Below, one piece after another: positions 3,138 through 11,258 of a DNA stretch of 23,682 nucleotides (its first letter is position 1; the number at the start of each line of letters is the position of its first letter). Origin of the DNA: a virus. The position numbers and the translations under genes were made by a program. Location of the stretch: IMG/VR virus record IMGVR_UViG_3300021472_000014, positions 1 to 23,682 of that record; one strand, given 5' to 3'. The notes under the pieces are model-generated. The model was not told where the DNA came from. It made no database searches and saw only the letters and a program-made list of their open reading frames with translations.

Positions 3138-3405
3138 TTTGCTTTGTAAGTTTGGTTTTCATAAGTGGAAGATGGTAAAAGATAGTTATCCTGATTGTTT
3201 TTTAGGAGTGAAAATACGACGATATTATATCAGATTCAAGATTTGCCAACGATGTGGGCAATGTAGAGAGTATTTTCATGATAGTTGGATACCCCTTGAT
3301 GAAGAACAATCTAAAATTTTGATGTCAAAAATCATAGATAAAGGGGAATACTATCTTTTAAAAAGAAAGGATAGCCATGGCACGCACGAGGACAATAAAG
3401 CCTGA
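3118..3405 (+). CDS. Small basic CxxC protein, function unknown
   Basis: A 95-residue product. ATG 3118 follows AAGGAGA and gives MARTRDSLL; the longer frame back to 3046 only shadows YopX. A CQRCGQC motif near residues 43-49, together with C9, may bind a metal; the surrounding KFGFHKW, YYIRFKICQRCG and YFHD resemble short zinc-ribbon phage proteins of the 'cell-surface/DUF' kind, without a firm match. The C-terminus is shared in another frame with the start of the replication initiator (overlap 3377-3405). Its first 15 nt are repeated exactly at the start of that next gene. Confidence 0.65.
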   Translation: MARTRDSLLCKFGFHKWKMVKDSYPDCFLGVKIRRYYIRFKICQRCGQCREYFHDSWIPLDEEQSKILMSKIIDKGEYYLLKRKDSHGTHEDNKA

Positions 3406-4372
3406 GTTCTGGACAGATGAGAAGATAGGCTCGTTGCCCATAGAAGCAAGATTGCTTTTCATAGGATTATGGGCACAAGCTGACGATTATGGCGTGGTAA
3501 AAGGGAATCCTGTGCTTCTAAAAAGTCTAATATTCCCTTATGACGAAGACTTAAAAGCGAGTCAGATAAAAGATTGGTTGACTGAGCTTGTGCGAATTCG
3601 GGCGCTAATTCCCTTTCAATACAATGGTGAGCAATATTATTACATTCGAACTTTCAGAACGCATCAAATAATTCCCCGTCCATCTAAACAGCGTAATGTT
3701 CCGCAAGAAATATTAGATAACATATTAGAAAATGCAATGCAATTACATGAAAGTGCAGTGCAATTGCATGAAAATGCAATGCAATTACATGAAAGTGCAA
3801 TGCAATTTCATGATGAAACAGAAACAGAAACAGAAACAGAAACAGAAACAGAAACAGAAACAGAAACAGAAAATATTAACCCTAAATCTGACGATTTAGG
3901 GTATGTCAACGACCCGAAGTCGTTGCCCCCTCAAAATGACCCCTCTGGTAAAAAATCTGAAGCACCAAAAGGAGAAAAACAAAAATCACTTCCGGTAAAG
4001 GCAACGCTTACCAAGCTGGCAGCCATATGGAATGAGCAAAAACCGCCAGAGTGTCCATCAGTTAAGGAACCGTTAACGGATAAACGGCAAAAGAAAGTTA
4101 GAGTGCTCTTAGCGCGCTATGGAGCAAACAAACTGATTGAGCTTTTTGAGCAGGAAATCATTCCCAACATTCGAGCAAGTCCTTTCCTGAGGGGTGAGAA
4201 CCAACGAGGCTGGGTGTGTGGCTTTGATTTTGCCATCCACCCGGAAAAATTCGTGAAAATAATGGAGGGATACTATGGAGCACATAGCAAACACAATGCT
4301 AAAAATCAAGCAACAGTTGACGAATTCAGTGGAGACCCCTTCAGAGCACTTGATGAGTTACACAAGCGATAA
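3377..4372 (+). CDS. Phage replication initiator, winged-helix DnaD/lambda O-like
   Basis: A 331-residue protein. Residues 1 to about 115 form the winged-helix initiator domain typical of phage replisome organisers (TRTIKPEFWTDEKIG, ARLLFIGLWAQADDYG, GNPVLLKSLIFPYD, YYYIRTFRTHQ). Residues ~119-164 are low-complexity: four AMQLHE-type repeats then nine Glu-Thr repeats. The C-terminal domain (~205-331) contains the NQRGWVCGFDFAIHPEKFVKIMEGYY signature found at the end of such proteins. It would bind the origin and recruit the downstream helicase loader. As in lambda O, the putative origin lies inside the gene. SD GAAAGGAT precedes the ATG. Domain call is from pattern recognition; origin binding is inference. 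Confidence 0.85.
   Translation: MARTRTIKPEFWTDEKIGSLPIEARLLFIGLWAQADDYGVVKGNPVLLKSLIFPYDEDLKASQIKDWLTELVRIRALIPFQYNGEQYYYIRTFRTHQIIPRPSKQRNVPQEILDNILENAMQLHESAVQLHENAMQLHESAMQFHDETETETETETETETETETENINPKSDDLGYVNDPKSLPPQNDPSGKKSEAPKGEKQKSLPVKATLTKLAAIWNEQKPPECPSVKEPLTDKRQKKVRVLLARYGANKLIELFEQEIIPNIRASPFLRGENQRGWVCGFDFAIHPEKFVKIMEGYYGAHSKHNAKNQATVDEFSGDPFRALDELHKR
3731..3814 (+). repeat. Four 21-bp iterons inside the initiator gene
   Basis: Four head-to-tail 21-bp units begin at 3731, 3752, 3773 and 3794. Units 1 and 3 are identical; units 2 and 4 differ at 3 and 4 positions. The core ATGCAATTACAT is an imperfect palindrome; in unit 2 it becomes the perfect palindrome TGCAATTGCA. The repeats keep the reading frame (N/S-A-M/V-Q-L-H-E). 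Number, length and location match the iteron layout of lambda ori within O, so these are probable initiator binding sites. The repeat itself is seen directly; the origin role is inference. Confidence 0.85.
3815..3868 (+). repeat. Nine tandem GAAACA hexanucleotides
   Basis: Nine perfect copies of GAAACA follow immediately after the iterons and encode (Glu-Thr)9. The tract is pyrimidine-free except for one C per unit, so the two strands are strongly asymmetric, and it is A-rich and thus easily melted. Such a microsatellite can vary in copy number by slippage without breaking frame, since each unit is two codons. It may be part of the unwinding region of the origin, or just a flexible acidic linker. 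Confidence 0.9.
3879..3925 (+). other. Two adjacent perfect inverted repeats (origin-like hairpins)
   Basis: First hairpin: ACCCTAAATC (3879-3888), loop TGAC, GATTTAGGGT (3893-3902), 10 bp perfect. Second: CAACGAC (3907-3913), loop CCGAA, GTCGTTG (3919-3925), 7 bp perfect, starting 4 nt later. Both are inside the coding sequence, just downstream of the iterons and the GAAACA tract and next to an AT-rich AAAATATTAA. Their position suggests single-strand initiation or primosome-loading structures; RNA-level regulation is an alternative. Confidence 0.6.
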
Positions 4373-5498: not shown

Positions 5499-6034
5499 CT
5501 TTTGACCCGGAAGTAACACGGGTAGCATACAGCATCTGGGATGACGAGGAGCTTGTTGAGGTGGGGTTTCTTCAGCGAAATTACCCTTATCTTTATGACT
5601 TTTTGAGCAGGCTTTTTGATTTTGCAAACGACCACTGGGTCAGCAAAGGGTTGGTTGCTATTGAGGGGCAATGGTTACATCCGAGGGCGCGAAGGAAAAA
5701 TGTTCTGACATTCCAGCGTTTGATTGAGGTTCGTGAGGAGATAAAAAACACTTTTATCCTTGCCGGATGGCATGTGGTTGTTGTGCCACCGCAGCGATGG
5801 CAAATAGATATTCTTCACTGTCAGCCCCAGGATAAGCGTGCGAAGCGCAAACTTTTAGCACAGGGTGTCGCGAAACCCTATCTTGAGAAACTCAATGTAG
5901 ATGAGCATTTCTACGATAATCACAACATCGCGGATGCTGTGTGTATAGGGTTGTGGGCAACGCACAGGTTTTTCGATTTCGTCAAAGAGGATGATGATAA
6001 ACGGGTTTTTGCTGTGAAACTGGAGGAAAGATGA
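5486..6034 (+). CDS. RuvC-like Holliday junction resolvase
   Basis: A 182-residue RNase H-fold nuclease. N-terminal strand MRVIAFDPEVTRVAYSIWD carries the first acidic residue (D7) in the 'FDP' context, LVAIEGQ supplies E60, and HNIADAVCIG supplies D150 in the last helix, matching RuvC's Asp-Glu-(His/Asp)-Asp arrangement. An Asn (N147) sits where many RuvCs have Asp, next to H146, so the fourth metal ligand may be His. It would resolve branched replication or recombination intermediates before packaging. It overlaps the small upstream ORF and shares an ATGA with the next gene, so the set is translationally coupled. Confidence 0.8.
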   Translation: MRVIAFDPEVTRVAYSIWDDEELVEVGFLQRNYPYLYDFLSRLFDFANDHWVSKGLVAIEGQWLHPRARRKNVLTFQRLIEVREEIKNTFILAGWHVVVVPPQRWQIDILHCQPQDKRAKRKLLAQGVAKPYLEKLNVDEHFYDNHNIADAVCIGLWATHRFFDFVKEDDDKRVFAVKLEER

Positions 6035-6753
6035 GCAGAAAAATGCAAATTATCGTGTTACTTGTATTGGTTGTGCTATCCTATGGGCAATCGGGCTATC
6101 ATTACCTTTTCGCGATTTTTCAGACGGGGTGGAACGATACAGCATGGGTGGACACTTTCGATTTGTGTAACACATGCAGTCTTGGCTATGATTTTGAAGA
6201 CTGCCGGGATTCGATAATAGCGATGCTTGAACCAGATTTGGATTCCCTCGATTCGTTGTGGCATGGGTTTTTGCTGCGCTTTGTGGTATATGACAGCTCG
6301 CTTGGTGAATGGGACACTTACTTCGTGAACGACACTTCATTCTGCGCGCACGGCAGAGACAGCGGCATTATAAACTGCTATGTGTTTCCTGCACAAGGTT
6401 GCTGGGCTTACACATGCTCCACGGTTTTTGGGTATCATGCTTGGTATATACCGATAAGCGCCATTCCGCACTTTACTTTTCTTAACTCAGGCGATTCAGT
6501 GTGCTTTTTGATTACGAAAGGTGATTCTCTTGGCTATCGATGCCATCGTTACGACAACGACACAGCGCTTATTATCATGCGCATTATACTTGACGACACC
6601 ATAAGTTTGAGGACATTGCAACGCAGTGAGCGCAGGCATAAAGTTTACAGGCGTCCTGCCGGGGTTTATGACATCACAGGGCGCCGCGTTGTTGCTCCGA
6701 AGCGATCGGGAGTTTATATTCAAAGGGGTAAGAAGAAGGTTTTGGTAAAATAG
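6031..6753 (+). CDS. Secreted Cys-rich protein with T9SS/FlgD-like C-terminal tail
   Basis: A 240-residue protein. Residues 1-19 form a classical signal peptide: MSRKMQ, hydrophobic IIVLLVLVVL, likely cleavage after SYG. The mature part has nine cysteines (46, 49, 58, 105, 116, 124, 129, 158, 171), many Asp/Ser/Trp/Tyr and alternating beta-like strands, fitting an extracytoplasmic beta-sandwich. The end reads GVYDITGRRVV...SGVYIQRGKKKVLVK, closely like the type A C-terminal sorting tails of type IX secretion substrates in the FCB group, though shorter. It is coupled to RuvC by an ATGA overlap. Export is well supported; sorting by T9SS and a role on the host surface are inference. No known phage structural or lysis family is recognised. 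Confidence 0.75.
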   Translation: MSRKMQIIVLLVLVVLSYGQSGYHYLFAIFQTGWNDTAWVDTFDLCNTCSLGYDFEDCRDSIIAMLEPDLDSLDSLWHGFLLRFVVYDSSLGEWDTYFVNDTSFCAHGRDSGIINCYVFPAQGCWAYTCSTVFGYHAWYIPISAIPHFTFLNSGDSVCFLITKGDSLGYRCHRYDNDTALIIMRIILDDTISLRTLQRSERRHKVYRRPAGVYDITGRRVVAPKRSGVYIQRGKKKVLVK

Positions 6754-7703: not shown

Positions 7704-8976
7704 TTTGGTGCGTGGCTATGCACCGTATGCGAAGCAAGTGGAGTTTCATCGTAGCAATGCGAAGTATCGAGCTTTTATCGGCGGTGTTGGCAGTGGAAAA
7801 ACTGAAGCGGGGGTGGCGGAAGCTATCAAGCAGGCTATGTTGCAGCCGATGAGTCGAGGCTGCGCTGTGGCTCCAACCTATACGATGCTCATAAGCACTG
7901 TTATTCCTGTCTTCCGTGAAAGATTGGCAGATGAGCTTATCGCGGGTGGGTGGTCAAAAGGGTTCAAAGCAAGCACGAATGATATGAGGCTTCGGTTGGT
8001 TTCCGGCAGCGAAATTTTGTTCCGCAGTGCTGATAAACCTGATAGACTCAGGGGATTGAATCTTGCGTGGTTCTGGATTGATGAGGCTGCACTTTGCGAT
8101 TATCGCGTGTGGCGAGTAATGATAGCGCGATTAAGGCAGAAAGGTTTCAATCATCTTGGCTGGATTACCACAACGCCAGCGGGGCGGAACTGGGTTTACA
8201 AAGTGTTCGTTGAGGAAGCCACAACGCAGCATGCAGTCATCAGAGCGACGACATACGAGAACCCTTATCTTTCCGAGGATTTCGTTGCTGACCTTGAACA
8301 GAGCTATGATGACAAGTTTTTCAGACAGGAAGTGCTGGCGGAGTTCGTGAGCTTTGAGGGGCTGGTTTACGACACTTTCAATCGCGAGTATCATGTTCAG
8401 CGCACTTATCCTGACCCATCGCGATTAAAGCGAATTGTGCTTGGTGTTGACTACGGCTACACGAATCCGAGTGCAGTGCTTGTCGTGGGTATCGATGAAT
8501 TCGAGCAGGTCTGGGTGCTTGATGAGTGGTATAAGCGCAGAATGACGCAGCCTGAAGTGGCGGACGCAGTCGTGGAGCTTGCAGGACGCTGGGGAGCTGT
8601 GCGTGCCTATGTTGACCCCAGTGCAGCGAGTCTTATCGAGGAAATAAGACGGCGACATATCGCTGTTGAACCAGCTAACAACGATGTTATGACTGGCATC
8701 GCGAAGATACGCAATCTACTTGAGCTTAGAGACGATGGTGTTCGACCGCTTAAAGTCACGCATAATTGCGTTCACACGATAGCGGAGTTCGAGAGTTACG
8801 AGCTTGAGCGTTCCTCTGATGGCACTTACCGCGATAAACCCAAAAAGATTAACGACCACGCGATGGACGCGTTACGCTATGCGGTTATGGGACTTCTGGG
8901 AATGCCACGAATACCTGTGCGCTACGATGGAGAGAAGAATCCCGTAAGGTCAGATTTCGTTAAGGGGGCGTGGTAA
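7681..8976 (+). CDS. Terminase large subunit (Mu gp28-like ATPase/nuclease)
   Basis: A 431-residue packaging motor. The ATPase half has Walker A GGVGSGKT (~34-41) and Walker B AWFWIDEA (~129-136) with the DRLRGLN segment just before it; coupling motif TTTPAG lies near 163-168. The nuclease half has GVDYGY (D257), YVDPSA (D312) and NDHAMDALRYA (D392/D396), the RNase H-like metal site of TerL. The frame is open back to 7645, but the upstream residues are hydrophobic and look artefactual; the ATG at 7681 gives MAQTVQID. It overlaps the small-subunit candidate by 23 nt. It translocates DNA into the prohead through the portal encoded next and cuts concatemers. Confidence 0.92.
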   Translation: MAQTVQIDLVRGYAPYAKQVEFHRSNAKYRAFIGGVGSGKTEAGVAEAIKQAMLQPMSRGCAVAPTYTMLISTVIPVFRERLADELIAGGWSKGFKASTNDMRLRLVSGSEILFRSADKPDRLRGLNLAWFWIDEAALCDYRVWRVMIARLRQKGFNHLGWITTTPAGRNWVYKVFVEEATTQHAVIRATTYENPYLSEDFVADLEQSYDDKFFRQEVLAEFVSFEGLVYDTFNREYHVQRTYPDPSRLKRIVLGVDYGYTNPSAVLVVGIDEFEQVWVLDEWYKRRMTQPEVADAVVELAGRWGAVRAYVDPSAASLIEEIRRRHIAVEPANNDVMTGIAKIRNLLELRDDGVRPLKVTHNCVHTIAEFESYELERSSDGTYRDKPKKINDHAMDALRYAVMGLLGMPRIPVRYDGEKNPVRSDFVKGAW

Positions 8977-8978
8977 CG

Positions 8979-11258
8979 ATGAACATTTTCGTTATGGCGA
9001 AAAAAGCTATCGCGAAAGCATTGGGAATAGAGCCACCAAAGCAACTTCCGCCGTGGTGGTATGTGGATGAGGGCAGTTCGCAGCTTTTGCGTCCTTCTGA
9101 ACTGGCGGAGATTCTTGATGGCAACGACATCGTTGCTAAAGCGCGATTATGGGAAACTATCGAAACGCGAGATGCGGTGGTTCATAGCTGCCTTCAGACG
9201 AGGAAGCTTGCGGTGTCAGGTAAACCGTGGGAAATAGTTCCAGCGAGTGAAAAGCGCAAAGATAGAAAAATAGCGCAATTCGTGCGCGAGGTTTTCGAGA
9301 ATATCGAGGATTTCGAGAGCGATATTGCTGATTTACTCGACGCAGTGGGCAAAGGTTTCAGCGTGCTGCGTGTGAACTGGGAAAGCGAGGACGGCAGATG
9401 GATTCCTACTGACCTTGAATGGATTCCACAAAGCGTGTTCGGCTGGCATTGGGAAGACGGCAGCTTTGGATTCTACGATGAAAACGGTGACTTTCATCGT
9501 ATTGAGGATTATCCTGGATGGTTCCTGGTGCACAACTATCGTGGGCGTTCAGCGCATCCAAGCAGGCAGGGAGTGCTGCATGTCGTGGCGTGGATGTTTC
9601 TGTTCAAGCGCTATGCATTGCGTAACTGGACGATAGCCAATGAGCTTATCGGAGTGCCAATGAGAGTTGGCACTTACACGCAAGGAGCAACGGATGCGGA
9701 TATAACATTGCTCAAAAATGCGTTGAAGAGACTTGGTGTGGATGCGTGGGCAGTGTTCCCTGAGGGCACGAATATTCAGTTCATAGAGCCTAAATCGCGG
9801 GGTGACATCAGCGCGATGTTCAAGAGTCTTATTGAGCTCGCTAATGCTGAGATAGCTAAAGCTATACTTGGTCAGACAGCGACGCTTGAGGGCACGCCGG
9901 GGAAACTTGGCAGAGAAAAAGCTCGCGAGGAAGTGCGACAGGACCTTATCGCTGCCGATGCTCGCTCTGTTATGCGCACCGTGCAAAAATTGGTTGACCG
10001 AATAGTCATGGTAAACTTTGGGCAGGATACGCCAGCGCCGAAGTTCGTTATTCGCTATGAGCCACCAGAAGACATGACCGAGAAAGCTAAAGTGCTTGTT
10101 ATGCTGAGCAAAGTGGGAATGGGTTTCCCTGAGAATTGGTTGCGGAAAACTTTCGGAATACCTGAGCCACAGGAAGACGAGGAAATCATAAAGCCGATGC
10201 CTAAACTTCCGATGAAAGACACGCAAGCTTTTTCAGCGCTGCGGAGTGGAGCAATGGTAGCTCACCGGGCTCATAATCCGGGGAATGTGGGTTCGACTCC
10301 CACCTCCGCCAATGAGAGGTTAATGTTGCTTAGAGACCTGAATCCTAACACGGATGAATTTATACTTCGCGATTATCTGTTCAATGAGGACTTGGTGCGC
10401 ATAAGCGACAAGGCATTCAAAGCCTTTGACTATCTCAAGCAATGGCTCCAAAAGCTTTCGGTGAACTCGCTTGCGGAGCTTTACGATAAAGTAAAAAATG
10501 GCAAGCTGGATTGGAAATTCATAAAACCATTTGGCGAGGCATTACAGGAAGCTATGACGGCAGCGGGCAGCAGAGCCTACAAGACTGTCTTCGAGAAATA
10601 CCACAAGCGGAAAGAGCTGTTTTCAATGCAGGAACATACAGGAGAGTTTGCTCCGCCTGAGGATGCTGTGCGATGGTGGAAAGTTGCAGCGTTCACGGTG
10701 GCTGGAGTTGAGAATCAGCAGGCGCTGGATAGGATAAGCGCAAAGATACAATCCGCGATTGATGATGGTGATACGCTTTACGATTTCCGTGAGCAGATAG
10801 ACGAAATATTCGAGGAACTCGGTTATTCAAGAGCTAATCCTTATCATGTTGAGACGGTTTTCAGAACCAACATTGCTACGGCTTATTCAACGGGGCAATG
10901 GATTGCAGACCAGAAGCTTGGCGACGCATTGTGGGGCTGGGAATATGTTGCGGTGATGGATGAGCGAACCCGTGAGGAACATGCTGCACTTAACGGCACG
11001 CGAGCACCGAAAAACAATCCGATATGGAACGAAATTACACCACCGAACGGATTCAACTGCAGATGCTATCTGGACGAGATTTTTGATTTTGAAGCGCACA
11101 GGCAAAGTGTAGCAATGCCTGAGGAGATGCCACCGATTGATTTTCCGGGGAATCCTGCGACGGCACGAGTGGACTTTGAAAAATGGGCGAGCGAGAGAGC
11201 TGATTTAGGGGAAATTAAAAGAATACTCGAGGAGCATGGAATAAATGCCAGTACCTAA
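8979..11258 (+). CDS. DUF935-type portal fused to Mu F-like head protein
   Basis: One 759-residue ORF (GTG 8970 also possible; AAGGGGG suits 8979 better). Residues 1 to ~545 look like the Mu gp29/DUF935 portal (PSELAEIL, RDAVVHSCLQTRKLAVSGKPWEI, PVFG-like EWIPQSVFGWHW, LAKAILGQTATLEGTPGKLG); residues ~590-700 are the Mu F/SPP1 gp7 minor head domain (ETVFRTNIATAYSTGQW, DERTREEHAALNGT, ITPPNGFNCRC). In Mu these are separate genes 29 and 30. At residues ~421-445, in the variable linker after the crown-proximal GIPEPQEDEE segment, the reading frame passes through a complete tRNA gene, giving the tell-tale peptide AMVAHRAHNPGNVGSTP. The portal forms the packaging vertex, and the F domain is thought to aid capsid assembly or enter with DNA. 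Confidence 0.88.
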   Translation: MNIFVMAKKAIAKALGIEPPKQLPPWWYVDEGSSQLLRPSELAEILDGNDIVAKARLWETIETRDAVVHSCLQTRKLAVSGKPWEIVPASEKRKDRKIAQFVREVFENIEDFESDIADLLDAVGKGFSVLRVNWESEDGRWIPTDLEWIPQSVFGWHWEDGSFGFYDENGDFHRIEDYPGWFLVHNYRGRSAHPSRQGVLHVVAWMFLFKRYALRNWTIANELIGVPMRVGTYTQGATDADITLLKNALKRLGVDAWAVFPEGTNIQFIEPKSRGDISAMFKSLIELANAEIAKAILGQTATLEGTPGKLGREKAREEVRQDLIAADARSVMRTVQKLVDRIVMVNFGQDTPAPKFVIRYEPPEDMTEKAKVLVMLSKVGMGFPENWLRKTFGIPEPQEDEEIIKPMPKLPMKDTQAFSALRSGAMVAHRAHNPGNVGSTPTSANERLMLLRDLNPNTDEFILRDYLFNEDLVRISDKAFKAFDYLKQWLQKLSVNSLAELYDKVKNGKLDWKFIKPFGEALQEAMTAAGSRAYKTVFEKYHKRKELFSMQEHTGEFAPPEDAVRWWKVAAFTVAGVENQQALDRISAKIQSAIDDGDTLYDFREQIDEIFEELGYSRANPYHVETVFRTNIATAYSTGQWIADQKLGDALWGWEYVAVMDERTREEHAALNGTRAPKNNPIWNEITPPNGFNCRCYLDEIFDFEAHRQSVAMPEEMPPIDFPGNPATARVDFEKWASERADLGEIKRILEEHGINAST
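10240..10311 (+). tRNA. Initiator-type tRNA-Met (CAU), in frame inside portal CDS
   Basis: All arms fold: acceptor 10241-10246/10304-10309 (6 perfect pairs, 2-71 to 7-66); D stem GAGC/GCTC (10249-10252/10260-10263) with T8, A14 and GG at 18-19; anticodon stem CCGGG/TCCGG with loop CTCATAA, anticodon CAU at 10272-10274; 5-nt variable loop; T stem GTGGG/CCCAC with loop TTCGACT. Positions 1 and 72 are T and C, unpaired; the D stem has A11-T24; and the anticodon stem has two of the usual three G-C pairs (29-41, 30-40; 31-39 is G-T). The 1-72 mismatch and A11-U24 are bacterial initiator hallmarks. Discriminator is A; CCA is not encoded. Its 72 bases equal 24 codons, so the portal frame survives. 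Whether it is expressed and matured is unknown. Confidence 0.88.

Follow-up and report, generated by a model that had tools for sequence, protein, structure and literature searches.

A predicted initiator-type tRNA gene in frame within the portal linker of a Mu-like phage

Rickettsia palindromic elements (RPE) are structured elements that lie in frame within protein genes, at sites where they are tolerated (PMC10969869). The tRNA-Met genes of Gordonia phage GodonK (gp160) and Mycobacterium phage Erdmann lie in intergenic tRNA arrays, and the E. coli initiator tRNA gene metY stands alone. Mushu and the Pseudomonas Mu-like phage D14K encode the portal and F proteins in separate genes. Both phage tRNAs and in-frame genetic inserts are known; our searches met no other tRNA within a recognisable essential protein gene, and our literature search for tRNAs inside portal or coding genes found no matching case. 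Here we describe a predicted initiator-type tRNA gene that is read in frame in the portal linker of a Mu-like phage.

The window, by which we mean the whole 23,682-base stretch of viral DNA analysed, contains on its + strand an uninterrupted ORF at 8970–11258 (762 codons from a GTG, 759 from the ATG at 8979). Its product carries a Portal_Mu domain (PF06074) at residues 59–397 (E 5e-95; 319 bits against a cut-off of 23.9) and a Phage_Mu_F domain (PF04233) at residues 588–700 (E about 5e-18 to 3e-17; 64 bits against a cut-off of 29.6), and it matches PHROG 113 and 220 as well as the structures of the JBD30 and Mu portals. The ORF encodes a fusion of a Mu-type portal protein with a Mu-F minor head protein. 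The tRNA gene lies wholly inside it, and the ORF scan, with Pfam domains on both sides, upheld the original prediction of a tRNA in frame within an uninterrupted 759-codon portal/F ORF. The two proteins also form one ORF in the nearest relative found, L084 (245–2893; 38% identity), and most related loci keep two genes. Elsewhere in the window, an ORF at 3377–4372 has a central Glu-Thr repeat run (ETETETET...) and no Pfam match.

ARAGORN made a single tRNA call in the window, a tRNA-Met (CAT) at 10240–10311 on the + strand, which reads in the portal frame as LRSGAMVAHRAHNPGNVGSTPTSAN. Rfam model RF00005 agreed, matching all 72 bases end to end (model positions 1–71, complete) with a score of 60.6 bits (E 4.4e-11); the gathering score of this model is 29, and annotated phage tRNA-Met genes score 49.7–65.1 bits with it, a range that includes the window tRNA. 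The two programs thus concur with the earlier description of a complete tRNA(CAU) with T1/C72 unpaired and A11-T24. A degenerate tRNA, which had been named as the covariance-model outcome that would refute the prediction, was not what was found, the score being far above the gathering score and the cloverleaf complete.

In the cmscan alignment, U1/C72 is the only non-standard acceptor pair, the rest of the acceptor being paired. The D stem is GAGC/GCUC and includes A11-U24, and the anticodon arm reads CCGGG CUCAUAA UCCGG. The 1x72 mismatch, A11-U24 and an initiator gene as the nearest E. coli relative are initiator features. Initiators should also have three G-C pairs at 29–31/39–41, where the window tRNA has two (G29-C41 and G30-C40) followed by G31·U39; because of this third pair we call it initiator-type and not a proven initiator. 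No 3′ CCA is encoded, A73 being followed directly by ATG. When the tRNA was folded with 100-base flanks, the predicted probability of acceptor pairing was 0.17, against a median of 0.28 for phage tRNAs, 43% of which were lower. Poor folding in context was dropped as an argument against tRNA function, because such folding is ordinary for phage tRNAs. The RNA folding z-score (−1.04) was uninformative by itself.

The tRNA starts one base into codon 424, and its 72 bases are spread over 25 codons. The earlier equation of 72 bases with 24 codons therefore holds for the net insert, which is 24 codons long, but not for the bases themselves, which start mid-codon. SGAMVAHR and AHNPGNVGSTPTSANER would be peptides of the protein encoded by the ORF. 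One of the three forward frames through the tRNA is free of stops, so an open frame is unremarkable in itself. The tRNA call survived in only 20 of 20,000 synonymous recodings of the tRNA segment and, when the whole ORF was recoded 1,000 times, in 1 case, and the cloverleaf is therefore no by-product of the peptide. The codon usage of the insert is foreign to the ORF, with only about 0.7% of equal-length ORF windows scoring lower.

Upstream of the insert, the portal linker at 10161–10239 on the + strand (EPQEDEEIIKPMPKLPMKDTQAFSAL) has an LPMK-like motif that recurs among relatives in the alignments. The bases abutting the tRNA 3′ end at 10312–10326 (+), read from the sequence, are ATGAGAGGTTAATGT; they begin with the adjoining ATG and run through a TAATG stop/start overlap to an in-frame ATG at 10323. 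From there the 3′ part of the ORF (10323–11258, +) encodes the portal C-terminal helical region and the Mu-F domain, as identified by PF04233 and the L084 alignment. It is speculative, but the ATG and TAATG might act as a restart from which the 3′ portion could still be translated once the RNA has been cut.

The insert had been placed in a variable linker of the portal, and an alignment of 125 portals bears this out, with linkers (measured between GIP(E)P and the C-terminal helices) that vary in length. The window linker has 86 residues, against a median of 59 in the 125 aligned relatives (mean 60.2, sd 9.9), and 62 once the 24 insert residues are subtracted. The longest linkers in relatives reach 97 residues and a few equal or exceed 86, so length alone is no proof of insertion; given these long linkers, the argument for an insertion rests on the foreign codon use and on the tRNA itself.

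The homologue alignment and related-phage search that the original prediction proposed both found the insert to be absent from relatives. L084, the only relative confirmed with the portal-F fusion, has a linker of 59 residues and an alignment gap where the tRNA-coded residues sit, although at 38% identity this comparison does not set the age of the insertion. No tRNA was found at any of 135 related portal loci (1.12 Mb, in collections that may omit records very near the window) or at any of 58 terminase or capsid loci, and scanning viral and genome collections with a single portal sequence recovered no relative. The insert is present in one contig only. Around the tRNA, no target-site duplication, flanking direct repeats or repeat family was found.

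An AlphaFold model of the protein (48 sequences) had a mean pLDDT of 73.7, with values below 50 at residues 418–442 and no regular structure at residues 426–446. Its best matches among solved structures were the JBD30 and Mu portals, with which sequence similarity ends at the linker. The JBD30 portal chain has 526 residues, of which 405 are modelled, and the Mu chain 512, of which 369–383 are modelled; the unmodelled part is probably the C-terminal part. Because the linker is predicted to be disordered and the JBD30 and Mu portals are only partly modelled, the insertion site looks permissive.

The best match to the tRNA in the E. coli K-12 record examined is metY (76% identity over 96%), which its argG-metY-rimP context marks as the initiator gene. 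The nearest phage match is the GodonK tRNA-Met (82% identity), also with U1xC72. Initiator tRNAs had been described as rarely carried by phages. This did not hold: one loose initiator-type core pattern was not rare in viral contigs (judging from at least the matches listed, some of them in contigs that may include host DNA), and initiator-like tRNA-Met genes also occur in Mycobacterium and Gordonia phages; such tRNAs appear to be less rare than first thought and not exotic in viral contigs. U39 was seen in 5 of 88 initiator-like sequences, the window tRNA counted, among the matches listed. The suggestion of a capture from the host fMet gene gained no support, since a near-match tRNA pattern had 0 matches in 84,980 species genomes. 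A stricter core pattern had no matches in viral contigs and a looser one matched only in tRNA arrays of large phages, so near-match patterns found no donor in the species genomes or the viral contigs. As to the host, a hint comes from a 240-residue protein encoded at 6031–6753 in the window. It has a signal-like start, matches nothing in Pfam or NCBIfam, and carries at its C terminus a tail, YDITGRRVV...SGVYIQRGKKKVLVK, which we take to resemble the sorting tails of FCB/WOR-3-type bacteria.

The viral and phage loci surveyed contained 289 tRNAs, of which that of the window was the only one found to lie inside an ORF with recognised domains (0 of the 288 others). The three longest tRNA-spanning ORFs tested (L224, L230 and L297) had no Pfam match and resemble accidental frames, and in Bacillus phage FADO a small CDS, which is not an embedding gene, overlaps the tRNA-like match. 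A ROOL RNA (L077, 2156–2774; 290.7 bits) was seen beside a tRNA-Ala within a phage tRNA array, and Nocardia phage NTR1 has an unannotated lone tRNA-Met (L082, 1000–1074) that separates the major tail gene from the next one in the structural module.

We consider it probable that the portal linker of a Mu-like phage acquired an initiator-type tRNA gene, in a frame free of stops, and that the gene is read through as a tolerated linker. The full tRNA architecture has been kept, and the insertion is therefore recent or held by selection; most likely the gene was captured in frame not long ago, at a permissive site, and is translated as harmless linker. It would have entered the linker, which is hypervariable and joins the portal core to the C-terminal helices, by illegitimate recombination, with another phage or the host as the presumed donor. 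The ribosome would then read through the tRNA and add about 24 disordered linker residues, which the portal would tolerate, while RNase P and RNase Z may release a mature tRNA to which CCA would be added later.

It is quite possible, if short of probable, that the tRNA arrived by chance, never undergoes processing and is set to decay, so that only a neutral peptide matters. The disordered and variable site, the absence of the insert from relatives and an open frame expected by chance in one of three cases all suit such a passive scar. However, the tRNA is unbroken by any substitution, so the event would have to be very recent, and a folded tRNA within an RNA should draw RNase P, useful or not. 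That the late portal mRNA is under selection as the precursor of a working initiator tRNA seems doubtful. RNase P and RNase Z would here excise the tRNA from a fraction of transcripts, to replace host initiator tRNA cut by anticodon nucleases or to boost initiation late in infection. The conserved bases and cloverleaf are intact, and folding in context is no worse than in other phage tRNAs. Moreover, enteric VapC cleaves tRNA-fMet between A38 and C39 (PMC4105405), a cut site at which the window tRNA has U39 and not C39, and phage tRNAs have been proposed to evade tRNA nucleases (PMC10264068). Yet phages mostly refrain from carrying a tRNA-fMet gene when nucleases attack the anticodon itself (PMC10264068), cutting would destroy the portal mRNA, CCA is not encoded, U39 disrupts the last of the three G-C pairs expected of an initiator, the window has no second tRNA copy and no homologue keeps the insert. 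On the sequence evidence, we think it rather unlikely that one transcript gives both a portal-F protein with a tRNA-coded linker and a working initiator tRNA, possibly resistant to C39-cutting nucleases, with the outputs coupled.

The insertion is known from a single metagenomic virus record, and tRNA genes are repeated sequences at which assemblers can err. The tRNA might thus have been joined into the portal gene in library or assembly and be absent from the phage, but this is very unlikely: both flanks belong to the same gene in one frame, the order in L084 is identical across the site, and a chimera formed at a repeat would be expected to pass from one genome to another at the tRNA. In addition, with identities of only about 82% to the nearest phage tRNA and 76% to the nearest E. 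coli one, the tRNA has no evident common donor. Since integration at tRNA genes is common in general, the embedded tRNA could also be used for attachment or exchange by mobile elements or by sister phages. We regard this as the least probable reading, since no integrase was recognised in the window ORFs checked, flanking direct repeats are absent and integration within an essential gene would break the portal.

One DNA stretch can here be read both as tRNA and as protein. If the tRNA is matured, a single RNA would serve as message and also as precursor of a tRNA, offering a clean test of competition between RNase P and the ribosome. Even as a scar, the insert would show a portal linker taking in foreign tRNA sequence as part of the protein, and single phage tRNAs might spread by such a route.

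The nearest analogue is the RPE, which like the window tRNA is structured nucleic acid in frame at a tolerated protein site. RPE form repeated mobile families of about 150 bp in several genes, whereas the window has a single tRNA gene with no repeat family or duplication found in it. With the tRNA-Met of GodonK and Erdmann, the window tRNA shares the CAT anticodon, the unpaired 1x72 with C72, A73, A11-U24 and the core of the D and anticodon arms. It differs from them in being single, in lying within a structural ORF, in its 7-base D loop and in having G31·U39 where they have a complete G-C at 31-39. Compared with metY, which has an encoded CCA and C1xA72, it has U1xC72, no CCA and U39. The head module has the Portal_Mu and Phage_Mu_F families in common with Mu, JBD30 and Mushu, and its fold matches the JBD30 and Mu portals; unlike the separate genes of Mushu and D14K, portal and F are fused in the window, as in L084, with the tRNA in addition.
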